From assembly GCF_000430765.1 (NCBI RefSeq), contig NZ_AUMQ01000038.1:1-56790 (forward strand): a stretch of 56,790 nucleotides of DNA. The letters run 5' to 3'. This document shows positions 25,868 through 47,393 of the stretch, in pieces. The translations under genes and the position numbers were made by a program. Under the pieces are notes generated by a model. That model was not told where the DNA came from. It ran no database searches and saw only the letters and a program-made list of their open reading frames with translations. Position 1 is the first letter of the stretch. Each line of letters starts with the position of its first letter. The stretch comes from Peribacillus kribbensis DSM 17871. GTDB taxonomy: Bacteria; Bacillota; Bacilli; Bacillales; DSM-1321.

Positions 25868-26247
25868 TCCTCTTCCCCCTTAAGTTTGCATCATCCTTTT
25901 ACGATTATAATCCTTCGAAGTCTCAACTATTCGTAATCTTTATCCGGATGGGAAGAACACGCAGGTATCTTGTACGTGATCAATGAACTAAAGAATCTAT
26001 TTCTCCATCCACAACTCCTCTGTGCAGATGCTGCCAGAAGCAGGGACTTTTACTGGTGCCGGTGTGGGAAGGCTTAGGAGCAGCAGGCTTCCCCTTCCCG
26101 GATCATTTCCCAGCGCGGGAGCTGTACCATTTCCAGAGCTAAGGATATTTCCGGTCTCTCAGGGATTCATGCTCAGCATGACCCCGCATAATTTTTTCCA
26201 TTTCCACACATTCTACTACTATCTACGTACATAAAGGAATGATGTTG
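25868..26247. other. Intergenic, 380 bp
   Basis: A plus-strand open frame (26022-26234) has no ribosome site and an unlikely composition, so it is not called. The region must hold the promoter of the alkaline phosphatase gene, but I could not identify it with confidence. Confidence 0.4.
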
Positions 26248-27885
26248 ATGAAGCGATTTTCGGTGATTTTTACGGCAGTCTTTTTGTGTATGCCGCTTCT
26301 TCCGTCAGCAGCGAAGGCTGAAGGAAGCACAGGAAAGCCAAAGAATTTTATTATGATGGTCATGGATGGGACGAACTCGGATGCAGTCACACTGGCGCGC
26401 TGGTATAAGGGCAGGAAGCTGGCCCTGGATGATATTCTGGCCGGAGGGGCGAGGACCTACTCCTATCGATCCGCCATAACCGATTCAGCGGCGGCCGGCA
26501 CGGCTCTTGCCACAGGCAGGAAGACGATCATACATTCCATCGGTATGACACCGGCTGATCAATCAGGAATGCTGAAGCCTGGGACGGAAGGAAGCAGCCT
26601 GAATCCTGGACGGCAGCTTACGGAAAGTGCGCTTCAAAACAGCCTGGTACCTGCGGCCTCTATTCTGGAAGCAGCCAAGCAGGCGGGCAAGGCGACAGGA
26701 CTTGTGTCTACCTCTCCTATTCAGCATGCCACCCCTGCAGCATTTTCTGCTCATGTGGAGAACCGGGCAAATTTTGATGACATCGCAGAGCAGCAGGTGT
26801 ATCAGGGCATCGATGTGGTCCTCGGGGGCGGAATGAATTCTCTTCTGCCTGAAAGGAGGCGGGACAGAGAAGATCTGGTGAAGGTGATCTTTAACAGCGG
26901 CTATGCCTTTGCGGATAAGCGGACCGTGATGGAGCAGGCCGGCAGCGGAAAGCTCTGGGGGGCCTTTGCTCCTGATGATATCGCTAATGAGCTTGACCGC
27001 AAGCGTTATTTTCCCCAGCAGCCAAGCCTTGCTGGGATGACTAAAAAGGCCCTTCAGTCTCTTAGCAAGAATAAGAATGGGTTTTTTTTATTCGTAGAGG
27101 GCAGTAAGGTGGACTGGGCGGCTCATTTGAATGACCCGGTAGGAATGATCAGCGAAATCTTAGGCTTTGACGACGCGGTAAAAGAAGCACTGGATTTTGC
27201 GAAAAAAGATAAGAATACCCTGGTGGTAGCGGTGACGGACCATGGAAACAGCGGACTTTCAATCGGCAGCCATAAAACGGATTCTTCCTACGCAGTCAGC
27301 CCTCCAGAGGAATTCATCAAGCCGCTGAAGAAGGCGAAGGTTACTCTTGAAGGAGCCATGCGGCTTTTGAAAAAGGATCATTCCAACCTGAAGGAAGTGG
27401 CCGATCACTACGGAATCACTGACCTGACTGCTGCTGAATGGAAGGCGTTAAATGGAGCGAAGACCGACCTGGAGCTCCAGAAGCAGCTTTCCTCCATGCT
27501 TGGCAGCCGGGCTAAGCTTGGCTTTACCACGTACGGCCACACCGGGGAAGATGTCTTTTTATATGCCTATGGACCGGGCAAACCGGACGGACTTGTGAAT
27601 AATGTGGATATTGCCCCGCTTGCGGCAGGCTATTGGGGAGTGAATTTGGATGAGCTGAGCGGCAGGAGATTCAAGGACGGTGCGGGCTATTATAAAGCTC
27701 TTGGCTATACCGTCAGCACCAATCTCAAAAATCCGGCAAACCCCGAGCTCGTCGCCAAAAAGGGACAGACTGTTATCCGGATTCCCGCCAACAAAAACAA
27801 CATGATCAAAAACGGCAAAACCCTCCCCCTAAAAGGCGTGACTGTCTATGTCCGGGGTAAGTTTTATCTAAGCACTGGGAAATAA
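26248..27885 (+). CDS. Secreted alkaline phosphatase (PhoA superfamily)
   Basis: This 545-residue phosphomonoesterase is exported by a signal peptide (about 1-24). Metal Asp40 is in MMVMDGTN and nucleophile Ser80 in ITDSAAAGTALATG. Further metal ligands appear in VEGSKVDWAAH, AVTDHGN and FTTYGHTGEDV. It releases phosphate from monoesters outside the cell. Three in-frame ATGs occur; AAAGGA is best spaced for the third (26248). Compared with B. subtilis PhoA/PhoB it carries a C-terminal extension (about 480-545). Probably part of the phosphate-starvation response; I could not verify a Pho box. Confidence 0.9.
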   Translation: MKRFSVIFTAVFLCMPLLPSAAKAEGSTGKPKNFIMMVMDGTNSDAVTLARWYKGRKLALDDILAGGARTYSYRSAITDSAAAGTALATGRKTIIHSIGMTPADQSGMLKPGTEGSSLNPGRQLTESALQNSLVPAASILEAAKQAGKATGLVSTSPIQHATPAAFSAHVENRANFDDIAEQQVYQGIDVVLGGGMNSLLPERRRDREDLVKVIFNSGYAFADKRTVMEQAGSGKLWGAFAPDDIANELDRKRYFPQQPSLAGMTKKALQSLSKNKNGFFLFVEGSKVDWAAHLNDPVGMISEILGFDDAVKEALDFAKKDKNTLVVAVTDHGNSGLSIGSHKTDSSYAVSPPEEFIKPLKKAKVTLEGAMRLLKKDHSNLKEVADHYGITDLTAAEWKALNGAKTDLELQKQLSSMLGSRAKLGFTTYGHTGEDVFLYAYGPGKPDGLVNNVDIAPLAAGYWGVNLDELSGRRFKDGAGYYKALGYTVSTNLKNPANPELVAKKGQTVIRIPANKNNMIKNGKTLPLKGVTVYVRGKFYLSTGK

Positions 27886-28102: not shown

Positions 28103-28130
28103 AAAAAAAACCATCAGCTCCGGCCGATGA
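28103..28130 (-). terminator. Terminator of the wall-polymer cluster
   Basis: CATCGGC and GCTGATG pair (one wobble) across CGGA, then GGTTTTTTTT on the minus strand. The glycosyltransferase TGA is inside the hairpin. Confidence 0.8.
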
Positions 28131-29658
28131 TTTTTTTGATGGTGTTTTTGATTTTGGTTTTTATGGTGTTTTTGGTGATGCGCAGGCTGAGGTTGCCGTG
28201 CTTGGTTTTGTATAGGATTCCGTATAGGTTTTTGGTCTCGGCCGGATATTTTGGCTTTATCCGGGTGGAGATCCGGACCCTTCCCGGGCGGTGCTGGGCT
28301 TTGTCCCCTTCTAACCGGAAGTAGAGGTCATAGATCCCTGGATCACATGTCTCGAATGCACGCAAATTGATATTGAGCTCGAATTCCTGGCTTTCAAAAG
28401 GATATACCGCTTCTGACTCAGCAGCCCTCAACGGCGGAAGACCAAGGGGAATTACTCCTGTCTTCCGTCCTTCCGCATAAAAGCTCCCCTTGAATTCCCC
28501 AGATGCTTTCGGCACCGTTAGCTGCCCCTTCAGTATCCAGCCACGTGATTCCCTGACTTCCCTGACCATGATTTCCGGCTTAAGATCCCTTGTGACCTCA
28601 TACTCACCAGCAGTGCCTTTCAGGATAAAGTTCTGCCCTTTCTGAGAAACGATTGGCTCGGTCTCAGTCCCGGTGTACATCCGTGAAAAGAGCAACAGGT
28701 CCTCATCCGCCCTCTTCATCAGCAGATCATAAAACCTTTTTTCCCTATATGGAAGCCTCCGGGCTGTTTCACCTGGAATTCCTGCAATAAAGTCTGTGAC
28801 TTCCTTCAGCCATACTTCCCTTTCCTCAGGGGCAACAAGTGCATATTTCAGCACATGGAGGCCCAGCACATCCAGAAGGCTTTTTAGGTCATGCTCTGCC
28901 GCAGCCTTCGGATCAGCCTGGGTTTCAAGCAGCCATTCCCGATTCAGCTGAAGCTGGCTGAGACGGTCCCTCGTATTCTGCAGCCTCATCTGCTGCTGGG
29001 TGATGGAAGGCTTGTCCTCATTTTCCCTGACTCTCCAGTGGTAGACCACTTCTGGTGTGACCGCGATTTTGCCGGCAAGAAGAGCCCCTCTCATCGTCAT
29101 GTGAAGATCCTCGTAATACTTGCCTTCCGTAAAGTACAATTGATGTTCCGTCAGGAATTCCTTTTTCCACAGCTTGTTACAGGCGATGCTGTCCTGAAGC
29201 ATTTCAGGCGTTTCCCGGATGGATGACACACCTTTTTCCTTATACAAATGAAAATCGACCTGTCTTTTAGTCAGGTAATCACGTTCCCCTGAAATCCGCA
29301 GTGTTTTGCCGACGGCATAATCCGCTTCATGCATCTCAGCAGCTTCCACAAGGCTTTTGATAGCCTTTTCGGGGATTGTATCATCCGAATCTAGGAAAAA
29401 TACATACTTCCCTTTGCTTAAAGCAATGCCTCTATTCCTGGTAAAGCCAAGTCCTTTATTTTCCTGGGTGTAAAGGGTAAACCTGGGCTCTGCAGCGGCA
29501 TATCTTTTTACAATTTCCTCACTGTGATCCGTTGAACCGTCATTGATGATGACAGCTTCCCAATCAGGATACGTCTGCTTTTCGACCGACTGAAGGCATT
29601 CATCTAAGAAAGGAGCTGCGTTATATACAGGGATCACAATGGAAACGAGCACGGACAA
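28114..29658 (-). CDS. Family 2 glycosyltransferase with C-terminal extension
   Basis: This protein of about 514 residues has a GT-A domain (about 4-220) with VSIVIPVYNAAPFLDECLQS, NDGSTDHS, the metal-binding LDSDD and a later WRVRENEDK. The remaining ~290 residues include beta-rich sequence also seen in TarS/TagF-associated enzymes. It should add sugars to a wall polymer. Of several candidate starts, TTG at 29658 has the best-spaced GAGGTG. It is the last gene of the minus-strand cluster and follows a GT2-TagF fusion after 93 bp with a terminator between, so it may have its own promoter. Confidence 0.85.
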   Translation of the reverse strand: MSVLVSIVIPVYNAAPFLDECLQSVEKQTYPDWEAVIINDGSTDHSEEIVKRYAAAEPRFTLYTQENKGLGFTRNRGIALSKGKYVFFLDSDDTIPEKAIKSLVEAAEMHEADYAVGKTLRISGERDYLTKRQVDFHLYKEKGVSSIRETPEMLQDSIACNKLWKKEFLTEHQLYFTEGKYYEDLHMTMRGALLAGKIAVTPEVVYHWRVRENEDKPSITQQQMRLQNTRDRLSQLQLNREWLLETQADPKAAAEHDLKSLLDVLGLHVLKYALVAPEEREVWLKEVTDFIAGIPGETARRLPYREKRFYDLLMKRADEDLLLFSRMYTGTETEPIVSQKGQNFILKGTAGEYEVTRDLKPEIMVREVRESRGWILKGQLTVPKASGEFKGSFYAEGRKTGVIPLGLPPLRAAESEAVYPFESQEFELNINLRAFETCDPGIYDLYFRLEGDKAQHRPGRVRISTRIKPKYPAETKNLYGILYKTKHGNLSLRITKNTIKTKIKNTIKKIIGRS

Positions 29659-29704
29659 AATCCTCACCTCAATCTCATAAAATTTTCCTCGAATCTGCTG
29701 ACGT

Positions 29705-29736
29705 GAAAAAAGAGCAGCTAAAACGCAGGCTCTTTT
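29705..29736 (-). terminator. Terminator after the GT2-TagF fusion gene
   Basis: AAGAGC and GCTCTT around a 13-base loop, followed by TTTTT on the minus strand. Confidence 0.65.
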
Positions 29737-29751
29737 TCCACTGTTGATTTT

Positions 29752-32415
29752 TTACTTAAATACTCTCTCGATGACCTTCTGGGCTGCATGTCCATCTTCT
29801 ATGCTGCCGAATTCCTCAGCAAAGCTGTGAAGGGCCGGGTCAAAGGCCTGGAGCTTCTGCGGGTCGTTTATAAAGGCAATGACTTCCTCGATGCTTCTGC
29901 AGACAGGTCCCGGAGCCTTTTCGACCAGATCAAAATACGTTCCTCTTCTTGATAGATATTCTTCGAGGTCATACGTATAAAGGATGATCGGCCGTTCTAA
30001 AAGGGCGTAATCAAACATAACAGAAGAATAGTCTGTAACGAGTGAGTCGGCGATCAGGTAGAGCTCCTGGATGTCCTGATAGGTAGAGGCATTCTTGATA
30101 TTGGATGGCAGGTCCTTGCTTCCGATTCTTTCGGACAATAAATAATGAAGGCGCAGCAATACCACTGTATCCTCACTGACAGACTGGCTCAGGGTCTGGA
30201 TATCCCGAAGCGTCTTTTGGAAGGAATTCGGATCCCAATCACGGAAGGTTGGTGCAAACAGCACCACCTTTTTCTCCGGAGAAAGACGGAAGTGATTCTT
30301 CACCTTCTGGATGACGTCCTGCGGCTTTTGGATCACGATGTCATTCCTTGGATATCCGGATTCAATGATTTCCCCGCCATATCGGAAGGCTCGTTTAAAA
30401 ATCTCAGTGCTGTACGGGTTAGGAGATACAAAGTAATCCCAGGCATTGGTCTGTACGCGGAGCTTTGCAAGCTCTTCATCAGATGGCAGCTTCTTCTGGT
30501 CATAGCCCATTCGTTTCAAAGGAGTCCCATGCCAGGTCTGCACATACACCTGATCCTTTTTCTTCCGGGTCAGATGCGCGATTCCCTGATTGTCGACCCA
30601 GAACTTTGAGCGCACTAGATAATAGTAATGCTTGAGACTTCTTCTTTTCACCTTAACGACGTTTCCTGGCACCTCTACCGCATCCGGATTTTCAAATGAC
30701 CAGATAAATTTATACTGCGGATGGCTTTTCCGCATTTCTTCATAGATATACTTAGGGCTGTCACTATATTGTTTACCCATATGGCTTTCAAATAGCACCC
30801 AGTTCGGTTTAACTGAAAGCTTTTTAAAGAAATTCTTCGCATACGGGCTGAATACCTTCTCCAGAATGCCAGGCTCTTTGCTCGCTGCTTTTCGTTTATT
30901 CAGCATCCAGGCAGCCTGATCTTTCTTTTTGAGCGGCGCTACTTTTACCGCGAATGAGTTTTTATTATTGATAAACAGCTGTCTTGAGTAGGTGCTGTCT
31001 TTGACTCTGAGATTTGGCAGATGGGCGATGACAGGTTTCTTCACCAAATATCGGTGAAGATTTCCCTGATGACTTACATTCAGGAATAAATAATAGTTTC
31101 CGGGTACTACATGATTCAGCGGCAGAAGCGCCTTCCCCCCGGAAGTCTGACGGGAATAAATGACCGCCCCCGTCTGCCGGTTTTTCAGCATCCAGGAGTA
31201 ATAGGCCTCTGAATTTGTAATAGACTCCATCGTGGCATTCCAGTCAAAGGTCAGTGCATCCTGTGTCAACTCAAGAGAATCAATGGAAACGGAGAATTCC
31301 AGGTTTTCCATCTTTAAGAATTTCTCATGGTTCCTGCCTTCCGCTGTTGTTTTAAAATAATAGGAGCCGCCTTTTGAATAGACTCTTGGAATCGAAGTCG
31401 GCAGATGCTCCTTATAAGATAAGAAGTCCTGGAAGCCCTGTTTATCGCCGATGTACAGAAGATAATACATGATCCGTTCTTTTTCCGGAAGCCTGATGAA
31501 CGCGTATGCATCCATGACTTCATGCATGTACTCATAAATTAATTCATGGAATTTATTTTTGTAATCCTCATCAAATTCCAGATAATCATTGGTATACAGT
31601 TTCAAGTCATGACGAAGAAACTTATTGTTCTTGTTTGCTTGATAAAGAATATCCCCATGCTCGCGAAGGAAGGCGTCAAAAAGACGGTGCGCAACAATCC
31701 GGTTCTTGAAGTTATCAAACTCAAACCGGCGGTTGGTAATCGATTTGACATCCGCATTTTCCACTACCCGCCAGTAATAGACCGGCTCTGGAATAATGCT
31801 GAAGGAGTCTGCAAGGAAATAAGCCTTCCCGGTGAAAACAATATCTTCATAATGAATTCCTTCTGGAAACCGAAGCTGATTTTGATCAAGGAATGAACGT
31901 TTGTAGATCTTATTCACCGATAAGCTGTCAAACAGCATCATGCTGAATTCACGAATGTTAATATTGGTCCGTTCCATATTATAAATTTGTCTCTGGTACC
32001 AGATCTCGTAATTATTCGTACGGATGACCTGGCCGCCGACAAAATCAGAACCGGTCCGTTCAATGGCTGCTACCATTTTTTCACACGCATCGATGGTATA
32101 CCAGTCATCTCCATCCAAAAACATCACGTATTCCCCAGTTGTATGGGCAATTCCTGTGTTCCGTGGTGTACTGCAGCCACCACTGTTTTCCTTAAGGTGA
32201 ACTGCCTTGAATTTTGGCTTGTCCGCCACAAATTTATCAATCAGTTCTCCTGTTGCGTCCGTGGAAAAGTCATTGACCACACAAACCTCCATGTCTTCAA
32301 AGGTTTGTTCATGAAGCGATTCAAGGGCTTCTTCAATATACAATTCGTTATTGTAGGCAATGACCACTACTGAAAGCTTAGGCGGCTTTTGATTGATGTT
32401 CATGCTGTTCGTCAT
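29752..32415 (-). CDS. Bifunctional family 2 glycosyltransferase / CDP-glycerol glycerophosphotransferase (TagF-like)
   Basis: This 887-residue cytoplasmic enzyme joins two activities. The N-terminal GT-A domain (about 13-250) has VVVIAYNNELYIEEALESLH, NDFSTDA and LDGDDW. The C-terminal domain (about 530-885, PF04464) has QTWHGTPLKRMGYD, SPNPYSTEIFKRAF, SGYPRND and TDYSSVMFDYALLERP, the TagB/TagF hallmarks. It would polymerise poly(glycerol phosphate) and add a sugar. AGGAGG precedes ATG; ATGA overlap joins it to the GT4 gene upstream. The tagGH exporter in the same cluster supports a wall teichoic acid role. Confidence 0.9.
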   Translation of the reverse strand: MTNSMNINQKPPKLSVVVIAYNNELYIEEALESLHEQTFEDMEVCVVNDFSTDATGELIDKFVADKPKFKAVHLKENSGGCSTPRNTGIAHTTGEYVMFLDGDDWYTIDACEKMVAAIERTGSDFVGGQVIRTNNYEIWYQRQIYNMERTNINIREFSMMLFDSLSVNKIYKRSFLDQNQLRFPEGIHYEDIVFTGKAYFLADSFSIIPEPVYYWRVVENADVKSITNRRFEFDNFKNRIVAHRLFDAFLREHGDILYQANKNNKFLRHDLKLYTNDYLEFDEDYKNKFHELIYEYMHEVMDAYAFIRLPEKERIMYYLLYIGDKQGFQDFLSYKEHLPTSIPRVYSKGGSYYFKTTAEGRNHEKFLKMENLEFSVSIDSLELTQDALTFDWNATMESITNSEAYYSWMLKNRQTGAVIYSRQTSGGKALLPLNHVVPGNYYLFLNVSHQGNLHRYLVKKPVIAHLPNLRVKDSTYSRQLFINNKNSFAVKVAPLKKKDQAAWMLNKRKAASKEPGILEKVFSPYAKNFFKKLSVKPNWVLFESHMGKQYSDSPKYIYEEMRKSHPQYKFIWSFENPDAVEVPGNVVKVKRRSLKHYYYLVRSKFWVDNQGIAHLTRKKKDQVYVQTWHGTPLKRMGYDQKKLPSDEELAKLRVQTNAWDYFVSPNPYSTEIFKRAFRYGGEIIESGYPRNDIVIQKPQDVIQKVKNHFRLSPEKKVVLFAPTFRDWDPNSFQKTLRDIQTLSQSVSEDTVVLLRLHYLLSERIGSKDLPSNIKNASTYQDIQELYLIADSLVTDYSSVMFDYALLERPIILYTYDLEEYLSRRGTYFDLVEKAPGPVCRSIEEVIAFINDPQKLQAFDPALHSFAEEFGSIEDGHAAQKVIERVFK

Positions 32416-33581
32416 TTTTCATTTCCTCCTATTTCTTCAAATAGGTCATACCATTGTGATTTAATGTATTCTTTATCAAACCTCGCACTGCTTTCATACG
32501 AACGCTGGCTGAATTCATAAAATAGCTCAGGGTTTGTTAAAAGCCGTTTCATCTGGCGGCTTAGAAGCTGGATATCGTCCACTGGTGTAACATAGCCATT
32601 TTTATAATCGCCGACAATTTCCCTGATGCCCGGCGCGCAGTCTGTCGAAATACACGGAAGACCGCAGGATTGTGCTTCAATCAAGGACATGGGAAGACCT
32701 TCTGCTTTGGAAGATAGAACGAATAAGCTTGAAGCGGATAAGGCTGCCTGTACATCCTTTGTCTGCCCCATTAAGAAAACCCGGTCATTCAAGTCAAGAA
32801 TATCGATCAGCGTCTGAAGTGACTTTTCGGCAGGTCCTTCTCCATAGATCTCGAGCTTCCAGCCAGGGAGATCCTGAGCAATACGGGAAAACGCTTCAAT
32901 TAAAATATCAAACCCCTTTGCTTCGATCAGCCTTCCTGTAGAAACAATGGTTTTGCTGCTGTACAGCACTTTTGGATCCACCTGTTTCCTGAAGGGAGTG
33001 GGATTATAAATCACTCCTACATTCGAAAAGCCCTGGCCCTCAAAGTGGTCGGCATCCTTCTGGGTCAGCAGAAGGAATTTGGAAACCTGGCGGTAATATC
33101 GGAGAATCCGTTTATAGCGGCTGGAGGCTTTGGAAGCGATGTAGCTCTCATGACTCTGGCCGATGATTTTCACATTCGGTCTGTAGAGAAGCGGCTGCAC
33201 CCACTGCATCCCCCATACCTGGATCACAATCACGAAAACCTCCTGATCTCCATACTTATCAAAGAATTTTTCGACTTCCTGCTTTCTTTTGGCCAGTTCC
33301 CGGCGGCGCTTCAGTTCCTTGGCTACCGTATTAAGCCGGAACGCCTTCAGATTAGAGGAAAGCTCCTTGGGCGCGGTCGCACGGTATCCATTCTTCTGGA
33401 CGATCTGTACCGGTATATCTTTTGAAAAGTAGCTTGGAGCATCTTTTTGCTCATTTATGCTTAACACGGCAACATTGTGCCCATCCCGGACAAAGTCCTC
33501 GGCTAAGATTGACGCAACACGCTGGGCACCACCGTGGCCATTATATTCATTTAAAACAAAGACAACATTTCTCTTTTGCAT
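32412..33581 (-). CDS. Family 4 glycosyltransferase (GT-B)
   Basis: This 389-residue retaining glycosyltransferase has the N-terminal motif NGHGGAQRVASILAEDF and the C-terminal donor-binding region VSTGRLIEAKGFDILIEAF, YGEGP and SSKAEGLPMSLIEAQSCGLP with the E-x7-E motif. A basic insertion (about 85-105) is notable. It is probably a poly(glycerol phosphate) or polymer glucosyltransferase similar to TagE in role. It is translationally coupled to the TagF fusion downstream. Confidence 0.88.
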   Translation of the reverse strand: MQKRNVVFVLNEYNGHGGAQRVASILAEDFVRDGHNVAVLSINEQKDAPSYFSKDIPVQIVQKNGYRATAPKELSSNLKAFRLNTVAKELKRRRELAKRKQEVEKFFDKYGDQEVFVIVIQVWGMQWVQPLLYRPNVKIIGQSHESYIASKASSRYKRILRYYRQVSKFLLLTQKDADHFEGQGFSNVGVIYNPTPFRKQVDPKVLYSSKTIVSTGRLIEAKGFDILIEAFSRIAQDLPGWKLEIYGEGPAEKSLQTLIDILDLNDRVFLMGQTKDVQAALSASSLFVLSSKAEGLPMSLIEAQSCGLPCISTDCAPGIREIVGDYKNGYVTPVDDIQLLSRQMKRLLTNPELFYEFSQRSYESSARFDKEYIKSQWYDLFEEIGGNEK

Positions 33582-34018
33582 GCCTATACTCCTCGTATTC
33601 CATATTTAGAGATCCATGCGGAGGCAGCCTGAATTTTCGAACCTCCTTGTTCCGCTTAGAGTTTGATAGGAACGGGCAAGGTTTGTATCAATGATTTGAG
33701 TCTGTCTCCAAAACGGAAAACCTTGGCAAAAATGCCATTACTAAATCCCTTACTCTGCTCGCTTTTGTTCTCAAATCAGCGTTTCCAGTTCCTCATTTAA
33801 AAACAAAAACGGTCCAGTTACTGCTTAATATACCCAGCATCGGCCGGATAAGCAGGTGCAGCCGACAATAATTTTAACAGGGACTGCCGTTATTCCTCAA
33901 TACTCACGAATTTTTTTAATATGAATGAAATATTTCGTGCGTTCCTTCACATACCAAGACACTATATGGCCGGAAGGCGGAAAGCATAACAGACTTCCCG
34001 CCTTCCGGCTATAGGTCA
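33582..34018. other. Intergenic, 437 bp, within the wall-polymer cluster
   Basis: The gap holds the tagH terminator (33963-34014) and presumably the promoter for the GT4/TagF pair. I see no gene in it. Confidence 0.5.
33963..34014. terminator. Long hairpin after tagH
   Basis: TATAGCCGGAAGGCGGGAAG pairs with CTTTCCGCCTTCCGGCCATA across nine bases. There is no T-run, so it may be an mRNA 3'-end stabiliser or attenuator rather than a full stop. Confidence 0.7.
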
Positions 34019-35656
34019 TTATTTAACTGTCATGCGAAGATATTTCGTGCTCGTCTGAATATCTATTTCGCGGTCCTTCCACAAGAAGGGCTCGGATGGG
34101 TATTCCTGGCGTTTGGATGCCCACACAGGAATCAGGAGCTCATGGCCCGGTTTATTCTTCATTTGGTAGGTCATACGGTATTCATACCTGCCCGGCCGAA
34201 GATGATCTAAAGATATACCAGCCCTGAATCCAGCGAAATTATAGTTCTTCCCCTGTGGATTAAAGGAAGGATTTTCTGTGATTTCATCCGTCTCCCTTAA
34301 TTCGACGGGATACATTTCTTCTTTAAATGACTCAAGGTTCACCACATGGAGGGTCACCCCGGCGTCTTCAGGAGAGCCGACCTCGTAGCCTCTGACAAAG
34401 CAGACTCCCTCCAGATTCAGGGTTCCTTCTTCAAACCAGATCTTATTAACCTGCTCCTGCACTTTATCAACGTTTTCCACGAGTAAAGCAAGCGTGTTAT
34501 TTTCGACCTTTATCTTATTTATATAGCGGCTTTTCATATCCTCAGTAATATTCAGATCTAAATTACCGGCCCATAAAGGAAATTCCCCTTCCTTGTGTTC
34601 CTCTTTATATCGGACAAGGAAAGAATATTTGCCTGGCTTTAAAAAGCCGGAAAAATCCTGTTCATCGATCGAAATCCGGAAGCCGGAAGTATCTTTTTTC
34701 TCATCCGGCAGAGAGGAATCTCCTTTATAAGAAGAGAGTGCAAGCGGCTTTGCGATCGCTTCTCCTGTCCTTGTATCTTTTACCACCAGCTCATAGCTTC
34801 CCTTAAAATCGGGAGCACTGCTGTACAAATATCCCTCCAGCCCGATCGACAATCCGCTCTCGCCTGCTTCCGGAGAAACATTCTCGATGGAATGGATGAA
34901 CTCAAGAGATGATTTGATTTCATCCAGCTTTTTTCTTCCGCTCATGAATTCATTATAAATGGAGCCGATCTGCTTGGAATCTCCAAAGGCGATGAGTTCT
35001 CCCTGATTGATCCAGGCTGCTTTCGAACAAAAATTTTCCACGGCATTTTTATCATGGCTGACAAAAATGATGGTTTTCCCCTGCTCTTTGAACTCATTCA
35101 TCTTGTTCATGCACTTTTCGCGGAACATAGAGTCCCCGACCGCCAATGCTTCATCGACAATGAGAATATCCGGATCGACATTCACCGAAATGGCAAACCC
35201 AAGCTTAGCCCTCATCCCTGAGGAATAGTTTTTGACAGGCTGGCTGATGAATTCCCCAAGCTCGGAAAATTCAATGATTTCATCCACCTTTTCCAGCATC
35301 TGTTCTCTGGAGTATCCGAGCAGGACACCCTTCATAAAGATGTTTTCATACCCGCTCAGCTCAGGGTCAATGCCCGAGCTTACATCCAGGAACACCAGTG
35401 TCCCGTTCACATCTACCGTACCAGAGGAAGGATCGGCGATGCCTGTGATGATTTTCAGGAGCGTGGACTTTCCGGAGCCGTTTTTGCCGAGAACACCGAT
35501 GGCCTCACCCTTCGGAAAATCGATCGAAACATCATGAAGCGCCAGAAATTCCTTGTGCAGCTTTTTTTTCGTCACGACTTCTTTAATCGGGCCCCATTTA
35601 TCTTCATATAACTTATATTTTTTCGTCAGTTGTTTGACGCTAACTGAAATATCCAT
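34019..35656 (-). CDS. tagH: Teichoic acid ABC exporter ATPase TagH
   Basis: This 545-residue ATPase drives export of wall teichoic acid through TagG. Walker A GKNGSGKST (57-65), signature YSSGMRAKLGFA, Walker B ILIVDEALAVGD and the polysaccharide-exporter form of the ABC domain (first 250 residues) are clear. The last ~290 residues form two related Ig-like or Wzt-C-like segments (FSGFLKPGKYSFLVRYK; DHLRPGRYEYRMTYQ), which could read the polymer. AAAGGCGG precedes ATG, 23 bp after tagG. Confidence 0.92.
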   Translation of the reverse strand: MDISVSVKQLTKKYKLYEDKWGPIKEVVTKKKLHKEFLALHDVSIDFPKGEAIGVLGKNGSGKSTLLKIITGIADPSSGTVDVNGTLVFLDVSSGIDPELSGYENIFMKGVLLGYSREQMLEKVDEIIEFSELGEFISQPVKNYSSGMRAKLGFAISVNVDPDILIVDEALAVGDSMFREKCMNKMNEFKEQGKTIIFVSHDKNAVENFCSKAAWINQGELIAFGDSKQIGSIYNEFMSGRKKLDEIKSSLEFIHSIENVSPEAGESGLSIGLEGYLYSSAPDFKGSYELVVKDTRTGEAIAKPLALSSYKGDSSLPDEKKDTSGFRISIDEQDFSGFLKPGKYSFLVRYKEEHKEGEFPLWAGNLDLNITEDMKSRYINKIKVENNTLALLVENVDKVQEQVNKIWFEEGTLNLEGVCFVRGYEVGSPEDAGVTLHVVNLESFKEEMYPVELRETDEITENPSFNPQGKNYNFAGFRAGISLDHLRPGRYEYRMTYQMKNKPGHELLIPVWASKRQEYPSEPFLWKDREIDIQTSTKYLRMTVK

Positions 35657-35679
35657 TGATTATCCGCCTTTCGCGAAAC

Positions 35680-36468
35680 TCACATTATGTCCAGGAAGAT
35701 CGGCTTCATGCGTTTGTACATATAATTTCCCAGCGCAAACAGAATCAGCACTACAATCCAGAAGTAGAGTGTGTATACCGGATGCTCCCAAAAACCTGAT
35801 TTAAAAAGGATGGAATCACGGTATCCCTGGACAACGTAATGAAAGGGATTTAATTTGACGATTTTATCAAAACGGCCCGCATTATCTACATTCCATAAGA
35901 TTGGGGTCATCCAAAACAGGAAGATTAATACGGTATCCAAAAAACGGCCGAAATCCTTGCTTATGGCCACAAGGGGAGCGGTCACCGCACCAAGGCCAAG
36001 GAGGAGCATCAGGCCGGCAAAATCATAATAAACCACCTGCAGCCAGAACCACGAAGGATCAATGGAAAAGGCCATGACTGCCAAAATGACGACCAGCAAG
36101 ATGATGTGGGTATAAAATGAATACATAATCTGCACAGCCGGCAGGATGGCAATCGGGAACGGCGTATTTTTAATAATATGCCTCTTTCCCCGGAAGGCTC
36201 TTGATGAAAGACGGAAGCCGTCATTCATAAAGAACCAGGAAACCATTCCAATCGCAAGCCAGGCTATATAAGGTGCCCCATCAACAGGCTTTCCGGCTCT
36301 TGAACCTATTTGAAATACGAACCAGTAAACAGCGATCCTCATCAGCGGATTGACAAGCCCCCAGATGGATCCAAGGACTGTTCCCGCATATTCTCTTTTT
36401 ATTTCATGCAAGGATAATGCGTGGACCATTTTTCTCCTTTGCCACATTTCCTTATAAATATCAAACAT
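35680..36468 (-). CDS. tagG: Teichoic acid ABC exporter permease TagG
   Basis: This 262-residue ABC-2 permease has six membrane helices. The N-terminal amphipathic stretch LSLHEIKREYAGTVLGSIWG with NPLMRI is the family signature, and the late NPFHYVVQGYRD segment is also typical. It forms the channel that moves lipid-linked wall teichoic acid across the membrane. Length matches TagG. Adjacent to and 5' of tagH, as in other bacilli. Confidence 0.93.
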   Translation of the reverse strand: MFDIYKEMWQRRKMVHALSLHEIKREYAGTVLGSIWGLVNPLMRIAVYWFVFQIGSRAGKPVDGAPYIAWLAIGMVSWFFMNDGFRLSSRAFRGKRHIIKNTPFPIAILPAVQIMYSFYTHIILLVVILAVMAFSIDPSWFWLQVVYYDFAGLMLLLGLGAVTAPLVAISKDFGRFLDTVLIFLFWMTPILWNVDNAGRFDKIVKLNPFHYVVQGYRDSILFKSGFWEHPVYTLYFWIVVLILFALGNYMYKRMKPIFLDIM

Positions 36469-36485
36469 ACGTGTATCTCCTTTGG

Positions 36486-36511
36486 TTAAAAGCCCGGATC
36501 TGCCGGGCTTT
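36486..36511 (-). terminator. Terminator between galE and tagG
   Basis: AAGCCCGG and CCGGGCTT form a perfect stem, then TTAACC. The T-run is short, so some readthrough into tagG is likely. Confidence 0.65.
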
Positions 36512-36531
36512 GGACTGGCATGCAGCCTTAA

Positions 36532-37545
36532 TTATTCAAATCCATTCGGATTCTTCGACTGCCAGTTCCATGAATCCTTCACCATATCATCCAGGGATTT
36601 CTCAGCGCGCCAGCCGAGCACCTTCTCAGCTTTTTCAGGGTTGGCATAGCTTTCTGCGACATCCCCAGGGCGGCGGTCCGTAATTTCGTACGGAATTTCC
36701 CTTTCTGTAGCCTCACGGAAGGCATTCACAAGGTCAAGCACACTGTAGCCTGTGCCTGTCCCAAGATTGAAGGATTCTACTCCTTCGTGGGTTTCCAGGT
36801 ATTCAAGGGCCTTTAAGTGGCCTTTCACAAGGTCCACTACGTGGATATAATCGCGCACTCCTGTACCGTCATGCGTCTCATAGTCATTGCCGAAGACAGC
36901 CAGCTTTTCTCTCTTGCCGATAGCTACCTGTGTGATATATGGAGTCAGGTTGTTCGGGATTCCATTCGGATGCTCGCCGATCATTCCGCTCACATGCGCT
37001 CCAACCGGGTTGAAATAGCGCAGAAGGGCAATTTTCCATGTGCTGTCAGATACGAACAAATCACGGAGGATTTCTTCGACCATCAGCTTGGTGCGGCCAT
37101 ATGGATTAGTCGCGGAAAGAGGGAACGACTCATCGATCGGAACAGTCGTTGTATTTCCGTACACAGTCGCAGACGAACTGAAGACCAGCTTCTTCACATC
37201 ATGCTTGGCCATAACCTCGCACAGATTGATGGTTCCAGTCAGGTTATTATGGTAGTACTTTAATGGAATAGCCACAGATTCACCCACAGCCTTCAAGCCG
37301 GCAAAGTGCATGACTGCGTCAAAGCTGTACTTCGAGAACAGCTTTTCCAGTGCATCGCGGTCCAATAAATCAATATTATAGAATGGGAAGTCCTTCCCTG
37401 TAATTTTCTTAACGCGTTCAATGGACTCCTGCTTGCTGTTGGACAGATTATCCAAAATCACAATCTCATATCCGCTATTCAAAAGCTCAACCGCGGCATG
37501 GCTCCCAATATAGCCTGCACCGCCAGTAACCAAAATTGTCATCAT
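36532..37545 (-). CDS. galE: UDP-glucose 4-epimerase GalE
   Basis: This 337-residue NAD-dependent epimerase interconverts UDP-glucose and UDP-galactose (or the GlcNAc/GalNAc pair). The Rossmann motif GGAGYIGS sits at the N-terminus. The catalytic SSSATVYG serine/tyrosine set and NPYGRTKLMVEE (YxxxK) follow, and EIPYEITDRRPGDVAESYA closes the sugar site. The start is ATGATG, with GAGG upstream. Placed first in the wall-polymer cluster, it probably supplies galactose-type sugars to the glycosyltransferases. Confidence 0.95.
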   Translation of the reverse strand: MMTILVTGGAGYIGSHAAVELLNSGYEIVILDNLSNSKQESIERVKKITGKDFPFYNIDLLDRDALEKLFSKYSFDAVMHFAGLKAVGESVAIPLKYYHNNLTGTINLCEVMAKHDVKKLVFSSSATVYGNTTTVPIDESFPLSATNPYGRTKLMVEEILRDLFVSDSTWKIALLRYFNPVGAHVSGMIGEHPNGIPNNLTPYITQVAIGKREKLAVFGNDYETHDGTGVRDYIHVVDLVKGHLKALEYLETHEGVESFNLGTGTGYSVLDLVNAFREATEREIPYEITDRRPGDVAESYANPEKAEKVLGWRAEKSLDDMVKDSWNWQSKNPNGFE

Positions 37546-38865: not shown

Positions 38866-39316
38866 GATTACTTCCCAAGTAAAAGACTTGGATTGCGGAG
38901 TCTTCTTCTAATTTGTGCCTCTTATAGTACGTAGAATCCAAAAGGGTTACAAAACACCATAAGAGAGATTTTCAAGAATTGTGCTAACGGCTTAATTTTC
39001 AATAGGAAAGATTAAGAGCAGGGCAAGTCGGATGAAATCTTGATAGATTGTATAACCGGAAACAACAGTATTGTAAGTGCTTTCCGTCTTCGTTTTTAAT
39101 ACTTGGAGTCTTGGCTGGTTAAACACATGTGGATTAACAAACCTACAGATTTTATTTTAGGTCATTTTTACTATTTTACTAAAAAAATAGATTAAATGTA
39201 AAAAAATTACTTTACTATAGGCTCTTAGTGATAGTACAATTTGAATGTTGTTTTTATGACAAATTATTCTTGTGGGTCGAATTATCTATCGGGATATTAC
39301 AATATGGAGGAGAAAC
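38866..39316. other. 451-bp upstream region of the glucanotransferase gene
   Basis: AT-rich leader with no gene. A cre-like site lies at 39072-39085. The 190 bp after it, ending in the GGAGGAG ribosome site, should contain the promoter. Confidence 0.5.
39072..39085. promoter_or_regulatory. Possible CcpA cre site upstream of the glucanotransferase gene
   Basis: TGTAAGTGCTTTCC matches 12 of 14 positions of TGWAARCGYTWNCW, with a C-to-T change at the central CG. Catabolite control is usual for amylase-type genes. Confidence 0.4.
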
Positions 39317-44024: not shown

Positions 44025-46235
44025 TTAGTTTTCAAGTTGGAACGTTTGGCTGTAATGAACCTTTCCGTTTTCATCGCGTATTTCCACGCCTGCTTGATTT
44101 TTAGCCGGATCTACACGGAACACACCGAAGTTGAAGAAATTACCTTCCGCATACAAGCTTTCAGGACCGAAGGTAGGATCCAATGCAGGAGGATTGATTT
44201 TTACTGCCCCGATTGGACCGCTGATCAGTTCGTGATAATCTGTTTTGCCGTCATGATTTGCATCGTATTTGATCACTTCGGCAAAATGCACATCGGTTGA
44301 GACGAAATAGACATTTTTGATTCCTTTTTCAATGATAAAATCCGAGATTTTTTTGAACTCATTTTCAAATCCTGTCGGGTCATTAGGGTCGGCATTATTT
44401 CCATTTGCCCAGCCATCCCTGACGTCTTTCTTTCCTGTCGGAATGGAGATTGGCACTGTCGTAACGACAAATTTCACCTTAGCCTTTGAGTCTAGCAGCT
44501 GCTGTTCAAGCCAGTTTAACTGTTCTTGGCCAAGCATTGTTTTATCCGGGCCATCCGCCATGGTGTTCGGAGAGCGGTACCCGCGGTTGTTGAGCATGAT
44601 CATATCCATCGTATTGCCCCATGAATACTTGTGATAAAGCTTGTCTCCTGCACTGCGTTCACTTGAAATCGGCCAATAATCCTTAAATGCACGCAAACCG
44701 GTTGGAGTCAGCGGTTGGGAGGGGCCAGAAAAGTCATTGGTCACTTCATGATCATCCCAAATGGCATACGTTCCTGCTTTCTGTAAAAGACTGCGTAAGC
44801 CTGCATCTGTACGATTCTCTTTATATTTTGCCCAGTAATCCTGTACGGTTTGGGAAGGAGGGTTAGGAACAGCCGGTGTCTTATTGTCGGCATAGATGCT
44901 ATCCCCGAGGAACAGGAAGTAATCCGGATTTAATGCAGACATTGCCTGGAACGATTTGTACGGCGGAATTTGTCCCTGACCGCCAGTGTCTCCGCCCCAG
45001 ACCATCGTTACTGGTTTTAGACTGTTTTTCTCAGGCACTGTTTTAAATGATCCCTTCACCGAATAGTCACTGGATAGGGCATGTGCACGATAATAATAAG
45101 TCGTATCTGCCTGTAATCCATCGACCTTCATATGGACAGTGTAATCTTGTTCCGATCGTGCAAGGCCGGTTTTTACGATTGGATGTCTAAAACTGCTATC
45201 GGTTGAAATTTCAAATTGCACTTTGGCCGGGCCATTCGTGCGTGCCCATAGTGTGGCAGAAGAATCCGTTACATCACCGCTTGCAACCCCATGTGAAATA
45301 AAAGGCTTTTCCATTAGATCTGCAAGCTGGCCAGGATTGCTCGTGAACTCTCCATCAACACCAAGAGAAAGCATGGAAACCATATCATCCTGTGTATTTA
45401 CTGTCCGCGGCTGAACGAGAAGATGGTTTTCGTGGGCAGCTTCCATGAAGGTTGGAACGACCAAATCTTGACTTGGTCCTACACCTGCTGCGTAATCAGA
45501 AATCCGCTTGAATTCCTGGAATACATCTTTACCTTGCAGCATATCCGCCGTATATAGCTGAATCCGTTTTACATCCGGTGCCAGGGATTGCAACTTACGA
45601 AGGCTGTCCTCACTGAATGATTCAAAAACAAGATTCTTGTTATTGAGGGCATTATATTTTTTCAAAGTCTCAACAAGTTTCTCTTCCATTCCAGGATCAA
45701 CATTTGGTGCTTTTGTTTCAATATAAAGGCCAACTTTTCCATGACCCTTTTCTTTTACAAATTGAATCGCTTCTTCCAGAGTGAGCACACGATGTCCTTT
45801 ATATTCCTTTTCTTTATCCTCATGACGTGCCCCGCTTGCATCCAGACGTTTAATTTCTTCCAGCGTGAAATCTTTCACCAGCCAAGGTGCACGGTCTGGA
45901 TAAAGTTGCTTCGCATTTGTTGTTGCCGCTAGAGAATCATCATTCATCAAAATTAAGTGGCCATCCTTCGTCATTCGAAAATTCAGTTCAACGTAATCTG
46001 CATGCCTATTAATTGCCTGCTTGAAGGCTGCATATGTATTTTCTGGGCCAAAGGCGGATGCACCCCGTTGGGCAATGACGGAAACATTTGAGGAAATCGG
46101 ACGTAACGTACTTTGCCCATTGTCCGTAGATGTTGCTTGGCTGCTTGTACTTGGGGAGGCGAAAACCGCCATAGAAGCTCCTGAAGATACTGTTAGGGAC
46201 AGACAAGCAAGCCCAGCTATAAAACTCTTTTTCAT
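44025..46235 (-). CDS. Secreted GDPD-PhoD fusion: inactive GlpQ-like domain plus PhoD phosphodiesterase
   Basis: This 736-residue exported protein starts at ATG 46235 (AGGGG nine bases ahead) with a signal peptide (about 1-27). Residues about 47-310 align with GlpQ-type glycerophosphodiesterase (VIAQRGASAFGPENTYAAF; YVELNFRMTKDGHLILMNDD; YIETKAPNVDPGMEEKL). The catalytic HRG histidine is Gln56, the ELD aspartate is Asn85 and the MHDE histidine is Asn98. Residues about 312-400 are a PhoD N-terminal Ig-like domain and 407-732 a PhoD metallophosphoesterase (GGDTGGQG, FLGDSIYADN, IWDDHEVTND, STDVHFAEV) that looks complete. Both families act on teichoic acid in B. subtilis. I infer a dead binding domain tethered to an active diesterase. 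Confidence 0.9.
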   Translation of the reverse strand: MKKSFIAGLACLSLTVSSGASMAVFASPSTSSQATSTDNGQSTLRPISSNVSVIAQRGASAFGPENTYAAFKQAINRHADYVELNFRMTKDGHLILMNDDSLAATTNAKQLYPDRAPWLVKDFTLEEIKRLDASGARHEDKEKEYKGHRVLTLEEAIQFVKEKGHGKVGLYIETKAPNVDPGMEEKLVETLKKYNALNNKNLVFESFSEDSLRKLQSLAPDVKRIQLYTADMLQGKDVFQEFKRISDYAAGVGPSQDLVVPTFMEAAHENHLLVQPRTVNTQDDMVSMLSLGVDGEFTSNPGQLADLMEKPFISHGVASGDVTDSSATLWARTNGPAKVQFEISTDSSFRHPIVKTGLARSEQDYTVHMKVDGLQADTTYYYRAHALSSDYSVKGSFKTVPEKNSLKPVTMVWGGDTGGQGQIPPYKSFQAMSALNPDYFLFLGDSIYADNKTPAVPNPPSQTVQDYWAKYKENRTDAGLRSLLQKAGTYAIWDDHEVTNDFSGPSQPLTPTGLRAFKDYWPISSERSAGDKLYHKYSWGNTMDMIMLNNRGYRSPNTMADGPDKTMLGQEQLNWLEQQLLDSKAKVKFVVTTVPISIPTGKKDVRDGWANGNNADPNDPTGFENEFKKISDFIIEKGIKNVYFVSTDVHFAEVIKYDANHDGKTDYHELISGPIGAVKINPPALDPTFGPESLYAEGNFFNFGVFRVDPAKNQAGVEIRDENGKVHYSQTFQLEN

Positions 46236-46244
46236 TTTTTTCAA

Positions 46245-46733
46245 CCCCTAGTTCATTTTTGCTTTCGTACTTTAAACTACAGGGGAAACGTTAAGTTTTG
46301 TTTACAAGAATACTAACTTTTAGTAAAATCCTGGAATATCAAACTTTTCGCTTAGTTTACAAATGAAAGATAGATTTATTCTCCTAAGACAAAATGCCCA
46401 ATTAACGATTTTTTACAGTCACTTATGGTAAGGGGAATATCATCATACACATCTAACTGTTTTTGTATTCAGTACATTCCAATCATAAACCTCACATGGC
46501 GAAGGAATGATAGGGCGATTGACCCGTTGAGACTTTGTCCATTATGATTGGTATCTATCTTCCAAAAGCAAGTGGTGAATTAGTAGCTTCAGGATGGCCT
46601 TTTACAATTTGAATATTTATTCTTCCTGCCGAATCCAGTATAAGGCTCGACATATAATCACTTTTCCCAGAACTATTTATACCAATACTCCAACTTGTCA
46701 CCCTTCTTATTCTCACTAAACCTATAAAACAAT
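46245..46733. other. Intergenic, about 490 bp
   Basis: AT-rich region upstream of the GDPD-PhoD gene. TTTACA strings occur at about 46301 and 46355, but not at regular Pho-box spacing, so no operator is called. No gene is supported. Confidence 0.4.
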
Positions 46734-46775: not shown

Positions 46776-47393
46776 TTATATAGCAAATGAATGGCTTCCG
46801 ATTTGCCTGATAACATGACGGGAGAAAATCCAGTTATCACTGGCAAGACGCGGGTTATAGTAATACAACGCACCACGGCTCGGATCCCACCCAAGGTATG
46901 CATCCCTTGCTGCCTGGTATGCTGAAGAATCAGGGGTTAAAAAGTACTGGCCATCCTGTACTGCGGAAATAGCATTCCTTTGGAAAATAACCTCTGATAT
47001 GGTATCAGGAAACATATTTGATTGGACTCGATTCAAAATGACAGAAGCTACTGCTACCTGCCCTTCGTAGCTTTCACCACGTGCCTCTCCATAAACAACA
47101 TGTGCCATCATGTTGATGTCCTCAAATCTTTTTGATGTTTTAGGACCTACCATTCCAAGTGCCTCAATATTAAAATCCTTTTGGAATCTTTTCACTGCAT
47201 TTTCTGTAACAGGGCCATAATAGCCTGTAACATGAGAATTAAAATAACCCATTTCCTTTAAAATTGTCTGAGTATGTATAACCTGTTCCCCAGTTGAACC
47301 AACAGATAACTGTGCCGCTTCAGCTGCCCTAAGTGAGAAACTAAAACTTAAAACAAAAACCCCAAGGCAAATCAAATTTTTTAAAAGCTTCAT
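46776..47393 (-). CDS. Cell-wall hydrolase, SleB/CwlJ type with peptidoglycan-binding domain
   Basis: This 205-residue secreted hydrolase has a signal peptide (about 1-26), a PG_binding_1 domain (about 28-88: GEQVIHTQTILKEMGYFNSH and AVKRFQKDFNI) and a Hydrolase_2 catalytic domain (about 93-204). The catalytic glutamate is in VYGEARGESYEGQVAVA, and SVILNRV.. and DNWIFSRHVIRQIGSHSFA complete the pattern. It is similar to the lytic transglycosylase SleB of spore cortex germination; the short length could also fit a vegetative or spore-coat paralogue. A normal single-gene unit. Confidence 0.9.
   Translation of the reverse strand: MKLLKNLICLGVFVLSFSFSLRAAEAAQLSVGSTGEQVIHTQTILKEMGYFNSHVTGYYGPVTENAVKRFQKDFNIEALGMVGPKTSKRFEDINMMAHVVYGEARGESYEGQVAVASVILNRVQSNMFPDTISEVIFQRNAISAVQDGQYFLTPDSSAYQAARDAYLGWDPSRGALYYYNPRLASDNWIFSRHVIRQIGSHSFAI

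Follow-up and report, generated by a model that had tools for sequence, protein, structure and literature searches.

A predicted secreted GDPD-PhoD fusion protein of Peribacillus kribbensis with a probable lineage-specific loss of GDPD function

The window that we analysed, a 56,790-nucleotide stretch of Peribacillus kribbensis DSM 17871, encodes a protein in which a GlpQ-like GDPD domain is joined to a PhoD_N and a PhoD domain, and in which the GDPD half is predicted to be catalytically inactive. We consider it likely, with a probability of roughly 0.7, that a secreted two-function enzyme has lost one of its functions in this lineage. The family would comprise secreted, probably phosphate-starvation-induced bifunctional enzymes of Neobacillus-like and other Bacillales: their GlpQ-type domain would split glycerophosphodiesters to liberate glycerol-3-phosphate, and their PhoD-type metal domain would cleave both phosphodiesters and phosphomonoesters. 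In the window lineage the gene would occupy a variable slot near a teichoic-acid cluster and would have lost its GDPD active site; the GDPD domain would still adopt its predicted fold without hydrolysing anything, leaving the PhoD half as the working enzyme. The genome encodes three other GDPDs, all of which keep their motifs, and redundancy with these could be the reason for the loss.

Domain Organization of the Fusion Protein

Minus-strand positions 44025-46235 form a single unbroken frame, from an ATG at 46235 to a stop at 44025, that encodes 736 residues and lies in an open frame of 739 codons. Pfam assigns GDPD to residues 57-302 (E 1e-38), PhoD_N to 315-399 (6e-21) and PhoD to 426-682 (6e-46), with scores of 134 bits against the GDPD profile PF03009 (cut-off 23.6), 75.2 against PhoD_N (cut-off 30) and 157.6 against the PhoD profile PF09423 (cut-off 27). 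With the signal peptide recognized by eye, the protein has the family order signal peptide-GDPD-PhoD_N-PhoD. A preliminary description, made from the sequence before any database search, had read these four parts in one frame; the frame and the Pfam matches agree with it, the signal peptide again being a reading by eye. The features of the gene are as follows:

44025..46235, minus strand: GDPD-PhoD_N-PhoD fusion gene, 736 residues (frame reading and Pfam)
46158..46235, minus strand: putative Sec-type signal peptide, residues ~1-26 (KK, hydrophobic stretch, VFA/SP), assigned by eye
45330..46067, minus strand: GDPD (GlpQ-like) domain, predicted to be catalytically incomplete (Pfam and predicted structure)
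45039..45293, minus strand: PhoD_N Ig-like domain (Pfam; 0 of 31 otherwise invariant sites changed)
44190..44960, minus strand: PhoD catalytic domain, mapped metal ligands retained (Pfam and alignment)

Lost and Retained Residues of the GDPD Active Site

The active site of GlpQ consists of His43, Arg44, Glu70, Asp72, His85, Glu152, Gln188, Phe190, Tyr259 and Phe279 (PMC7086022, section 5); by alignment, the equivalents in the window fusion are, in the same order, Q56, R57, E83, N85, N98, E173, E205, F207, R277 and F297. On this alignment the window fusion lacks both presumed acid/base histidines, one Ca ligand out of three and the equivalent of Tyr259, while Arg57, Glu83, Glu173, Phe207 and Phe297 of the pocket are retained. 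What catalysis would require is accordingly incomplete: two histidines and one of the Glu/Asp/Glu Ca ligands are replaced, with E83 and E173 still in place. The sequence contains every motif noticed earlier, namely QRG (Q56), ELN (N85), MND (N98), ENT, TKDG, YIETK and PGMEEKL, and to these observations we add a four-residue deletion in the GSWF(N) block near residue 134, Arg277 in place of a pocket aromatic residue, R104A and G134S. The altered sites, all located by alignment, are:

46068..46070, minus strand: Gln56, codon CAA; His in the other fusions (GlpQ His43)
45981..45983, minus strand: Asn85, codon AAT; Asp in the other fusions (GlpQ Asp72, a Ca ligand)
45942..45944, minus strand: Asn98, codon AAT; His in the other fusions (GlpQ His85)
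45828..45839, minus strand: four-residue in-frame loss in the GSWFN block, ~residues 133-136, its exact place depending on the alignment
45405..45413, minus strand: QPR (275-277); HPW or HPY in the other fusions, QPY in locus L053 (GlpQ Tyr259)

Two further differences were considered as losses and rejected. H275Q is not diagnostic, because L053, whose other motifs are intact, also has Gln at this position, and H66N (ENT for EHT) is frequently seen among GDPD-only relatives. At the Gln188 site the window fusion has Glu, as do the fusions at L021, L022 and L023. At each of the residues 56, 66, 85 and 98, a single base separates the window codon from that of L022, the fusion of Neobacillus novalis NBRC 102450. 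Both the GlpQ alignment and the comparison with the other fusions support the predicted loss behind the earlier claim that the GDPD half is dead; it should hydrolyse nothing.

The fold, by contrast with the active site, had been described as kept, and it is predicted to be intact. A model of the GDPD half from a 37-row alignment has a pLDDT of 93 and a pTM of 0.90, values to be read with the caution that an alignment of functional relatives can inflate the apparent stability of a decayed domain. The best Foldseek match of this model is 5t9b, B. subtilis GlpQ with glycerol-3-phosphate (E 1.8e-28, TM 0.87/0.89). The window domain thus has the predicted GDPD fold in common with B. subtilis GlpQ (5T9B) and keeps the equivalents of Arg44, Glu70, Glu152, Phe190 and Phe279, but differs in having Q/N/N for His43/Asp72/His85, Arg for Tyr259 and Glu for Gln188, in the deletion of a loop block, and in its fusion to PhoD.

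The PhoD Half

B. subtilis PhoD (2YEQ) combines PhoD_N and a metallophosphatase domain, as does the window fusion. In PMC4223295, mutation of the Fe and Ca ligands Cys180, Asp207, Asp265, Asp266, Asn271, Asn272 and Asp436 abolished or strongly reduced activity. The Asp and Asn ligands align, their equivalents in the window fusion being D445, D494, D495, N500, D501 and D648; Asp in place of Asn272 is a natural PhoD variant according to the same paper. The Fe ligand Cys180 differs: its equivalent is most likely D416 in GGDTGG, by a manual motif match (the HMMER path puts Gly opposite Cys), and an Asp at this site would correspond to the Asp-type PhoD subfamily that PMC4223295 describes. We assigned Y448 as the tyrosinate ligand by position. 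Nine window-specific changes fall at invariant PhoD sites; none is at a mapped ligand, and S443L, T446S and T646S are nearby.

Against the Pfam PhoD profile the PhoD halves of the fusions score ~160-187 bits and standalone PhoD proteins 408-424. The window fusion is the sole PF09423 match in its genome. The same is true of the fusion in 20 of the 29 fusion-bearing genomes, the window genome included, and the other nine add a standalone PhoD. Standalone PhoD proteins, with frames of 585-638 codons, occur in 12 of the 34 genomes searched.

Homologous Fusions

A scan of genome contigs yielded three fusions and whole-genome searches yielded more, in the order of the window genome, in the families of three genomes with hits, in the genus of one such genome, and in the class. 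Whole-genome searches of the genus and family of the window genome found no other fusion: the only one of 43 genomes of the family with a fusion-scale match was the window genome itself. For the order and class, larger groups were sampled evenly and at most two candidates were scored per genome, so some fusions may have been missed. Matches were present in 363 plasmid records, none of them with a place covering 80 percent of the protein.

The 31 other full-length fusion rows include three identical pairs (L021 and L088, L022 and L099, L023 and L100) and represent 28 distinct fusions, with 57.8-76.7 percent identity to the window fusion over the best tblastn segment. The N. novalis fusion and the 27 others share its three-domain order and PhoD motifs, but they keep HRG, E-x-D, HD and GSWF, which the window fusion does not. 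The GSWF block and H, D and H at the three sites are kept in 28 of 28. The same three residues occur in all 76 unique GDPD-only segments, which derive from 80 fetched loci and are not a random sample, and the full H/E/D/H/E set occurs in 75, L019 differing solely by a Lys at the Glu173 position. No second dead GDPD copy was found among these 28 fusions and 76 segments; among the fusions found, the loss is confined to the window copy, whose departure at the three sites exceeds what chance would give. A pseudoenzyme clade with conserved Q/N/N, as the preliminary description had envisaged, finds no counterpart here (0 of 28), because every other distinct fusion that we found retains H, D and H, the outcome that the description itself had named as speaking against it.

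Architectures within the family vary, since five proteins (L108, L109, L110, L114 and L115; ~401-409 codons) consist of GDPD and PhoD_N with no PhoD domain. Their two modules resemble those of the window fusion (53-63 percent identity per module), but unlike it they have intact GDPD motifs and lack the PhoD catalytic domain; no PhoD remnant was detected at E 0.01 in ~1.5 kb of flank. Genomes G957 and G980 encode such a protein in addition to a full fusion.

In the open-licence literature, judged by titles and the starts of abstracts, we found no description of a GDPD-PhoD fusion, and PMC11495043, in the portion available, names GDPD and PhoD domains separately only, not as a fusion. The fusion family is the more useful lead, since it could represent a one-protein scavenger that takes glycerophosphodiesters to phosphate. 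Together, the predicted bifunctional GlpQ-PhoD proteins of the relatives and the single-function version predicted for the window genome would form a natural pair, with which one could ask what is gained by fusing two phosphodiester hydrolases and what happens when one half becomes dispensable.

Evolutionary Rates and Constraint on the GDPD Half

In a codon model on 10 taxa, the window branch has an omega of 0.283 in GDPD against a background of 0.069 (2dlnL 18.5, p 1.7e-5) and of 0.12 in PhoD against 0.058 (p 0.008), a mild acceleration; PhoD_N departs in the opposite direction (0.039 against 0.127, p 0.024, its branch length of 7.3 being saturated). In both halves, omega is 0.035-0.068 on the four control branches, L093, L021, L087 and L096. 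An omega of 1 is rejected for the window GDPD branch (p 0.0096); if the domain was constrained first and neutral later, arithmetic from omega would make ~23 percent of that branch neutral.

The window fusion and the 24 closest rows (21 distinct) are 63.2-70.1 percent identical over GDPD and 79.6-86.2 percent identical over PhoD, and the window branch on a fixed 29-sequence tree measures 0.287 in GDPD, 0.300 in PhoD_N and 0.126 in PhoD, or 0.097, 0.067 and 0.054, respectively, as a share of the remaining tree length. The GDPD:PhoD ratio of these shares has a median of 1.96 in a site bootstrap and is 1 or less in 2 of 60 replicates. Of the positions that do not vary among these 24 rows, the window fusion has changed 21 of 128 in GDPD, none of the 31 in PhoD_N and 9 of 181 in PhoD, an excess of GDPD over PhoD with a Fisher p of 0.0014; if invariance across all 31 rows is required, the excess weakens to 13 of 94 against 9 of 148 (p 0.064). 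The highest leave-one-out control, L093, which has intact motifs, is changed at 13 of 141 GDPD and 9 of 190 PhoD sites.

Within the GDPD half, the changes show no significant clustering at the active-site residues of the literature (hypergeometric P 0.12 for the 24-row set, 0.05 for the 31-row set), and there is no excess at GDPD-wide conserved sites (5 of 44 vs 16 of 84, one-sided P 0.92). At 58 GDPD-wide conserved positions the window fusion departs 11 times and six intact-motif fusions 7-9 times.

The preliminary description had argued that substitutions at separate sites in an otherwise clean gene reflect selection rather than decay. Neither part of this argument is supported: omega is raised fourfold and the active site is not significantly enriched in changes, and an intact frame does not demonstrate selection on the GDPD half because the PhoD half downstream needs an open frame regardless. 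The rates fit relaxed constraint on the GDPD half along the window branch after a loss of function. Because omega is below 1 and the fold is predicted to be intact, the domain may still be constrained, and it may have a residual structural or binding role.

We also considered that an older GDPD half had been brought in by recombination. This is unlikely, because the neutral-scaled window branch lengths of the two halves agree (GDPD 1.23, PhoD 1.34). Pairwise synonymous distances for GDPD and PhoD are uneven, at 1.11 and 0.71 to L094 and 0.98 and 0.96 to L022.

A tentative alternative is that the GDPD half now does no more than help the exported PhoD half to fold or serve it as a spacer, with the GDPD active site drifting while the GDPD core is held. 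This would accord with an omega between the background and 1, with the intact predicted fold, with the in-frame nature of the sole length change in the GDPD half, and with the unchanged state of PhoD_N at 31 of 31 invariant sites. With a single sequence, however, it is inseparable from a recent loss, and the standalone PhoD proteins of 12 of the 34 genomes manage without a GDPD domain. It is compatible with the lineage-specific loss that we favour, to which it would add a reason for the kept fold.

Genomic Setting and Substrate

The window contains a teichoic-acid cluster 6.5 kb past the 3' end of the fusion gene, and an alkaline phosphatase gene:

28114..37545, minus strand: teichoic-acid synthesis and export cluster (profile search)
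26239..27885, plus strand: PhoA-type alkaline phosphatase, PF00245 (profile search)

The cluster encodes GT2, GT2-Glyphos_transf and GT4-type proteins, an ABC ATPase, a membrane protein with no Pfam match, and a GalE-like epimerase; from their order and size, we take the ABC ATPase and the membrane protein to be TagH/TagG-like. At 29752-32415 lies the gene of an 887-residue protein in which a GT2 glycosyltransferase is joined to a CDP-glycerol glycerophosphotransferase domain, and two congeners have counterparts with 70-81 percent identity. This joining suggests a polymer whose chain contains or carries sugar. Between the cluster and the fusion gene, positions 39272-42031 encode a GH70-like enzyme (PF02324) with Big_2 domains (PF02368). 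A cell-wall hydrolase (PF07486) with a peptidoglycan-binding domain, at 46776-47393, adjoins the fusion gene on the same strand.

In the two congeners the cluster and its flanking regulator are syntenic, and the interval holds a PhoA gene and others and no fusion gene. The absence of the fusion from this interval suggests a gain in the window lineage or a loss in the others; the reading that we favour includes a putative horizontal acquisition. A conserved neighbourhood was dropped as a clue to function, the neighbours differing in the four loci L022, L117, L118 and L119. Those of L022 appear, by eye, to be lipoteichoic-acid synthase-like, transporter-like and glycosyltransferase-like genes.

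The preliminary description had proposed that the protein degrades wall teichoic acid. The cluster near the gene agrees with this role in the window genome, but the role does not extend to the family as a whole: PF04464 (CDP-glycerol glycerophosphotransferase, TagF/TarL-type) has no match in 15 of the 29 fusion-bearing genomes (G362, G088, G313, G577 and 11 more), so a polymer made by PF04464 enzymes is not the substrate everywhere. Candidate substrates in these genomes are lipoteichoic acid, the head groups of phospholipids and external polymers.

The host polymer itself might explain the loss, if sugars on the teichoic acid blocked GlpQ-type exo-cleavage and PhoD-type cleavage alone stayed useful. 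GlpQ has been proposed to require an unmodified C2 hydroxyl (PMC7086022, section 5), and the window cluster encodes the GT2-Glyphos_transf fusion and other glycosyltransferases, with counterparts in the two congeners. Several genomes with an intact-GDPD fusion are, however, also rich in Glyphos_transf (up to 8), and we consider this explanation unlikely.

A Binding Role for the GDPD Half

That the dead GDPD domain is retained to serve the PhoD half without catalysis, by binding teichoic acid or by regulation, seems to us improbable. In its most specific form, a selected pseudoenzyme would bind poly(glycerol phosphate) and present the polymer to the PhoD site, and the high-confidence fold prediction, the retained pocket residues (Arg57, Glu83, Glu173, Phe207 and Phe297), the GDPD omega below 1 and the position of the gene near the teichoic-acid cluster would all suit such a role. 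We nevertheless regard this form, too, as a poor candidate. The pattern is absent from all 28 other distinct fusions, omega is four times the background and the changes show no significant concentration at active-site residues. The pocket has moreover lost one Ca ligand, both phosphate-contacting histidines, an aromatic residue and the GSWF block. A full-length model of the window fusion from a four-row alignment has a pLDDT of 35, which gives no relative placement of the two sites. Were a binding role real, an enzyme domain would have switched to a binding domain within a fusion, while the close relatives of that fusion are predicted to have kept both activities.

An error of sequencing or assembly, for which one could cite the single copy seen, is very improbable, because numerous independent amino-acid changes and the in-frame loss of four residues leave the 739-codon frame intact.

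A Candidate Pho Box Array Upstream of the Fusions

We take TTHACA to be the form of the Pho box in B. subtilis, and used it in a four-box test and a two-box test upstream of the fusions, with start codons chosen by a simple pattern that may be wrong for some loci. Upstream of the window fusion the four-box test gave:

46289..46327, minus strand: degenerate four-box TTHACA-like array with an 11-bp period, at -92, with 7 of 24 mismatches

Pho boxes are characterized in PMC4415409 as direct repeats of 11 nucleotides, and those of B. subtilis are said there to have similar features. The window array has a shuffled P of 0.025; only that of L102 is poorer and that of L053 equal, 26 of the 28 others being better. 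Pho regulation of the window copy is uncertain, because its array is degenerate and the two strands of the window hold 15 sites at least as good, the array itself included. The two-box test found no pair upstream of the window fusion. Complete loss of the Pho box in the window was considered and dropped, since the four-box test places the degenerate array at the homologous position.

Four TTHACA-like repeats with an 11-bp period occur upstream of 27 of the 28 other distinct fusions, for example L104 (shuffled P <=0.035), starting at -81 to -102 in 25 of them, at -70 in L103 and at -128 in L053; the four-box test found no array at L102. We consider the four-box array a candidate PhoP site, and the fusion family is probably under Pho (phosphate-starvation) regulation. 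In the two-box test, a pair lies at -102 to -88 in 14 of the 28 others (shuffle mean 0.1, highest 2 of 28).
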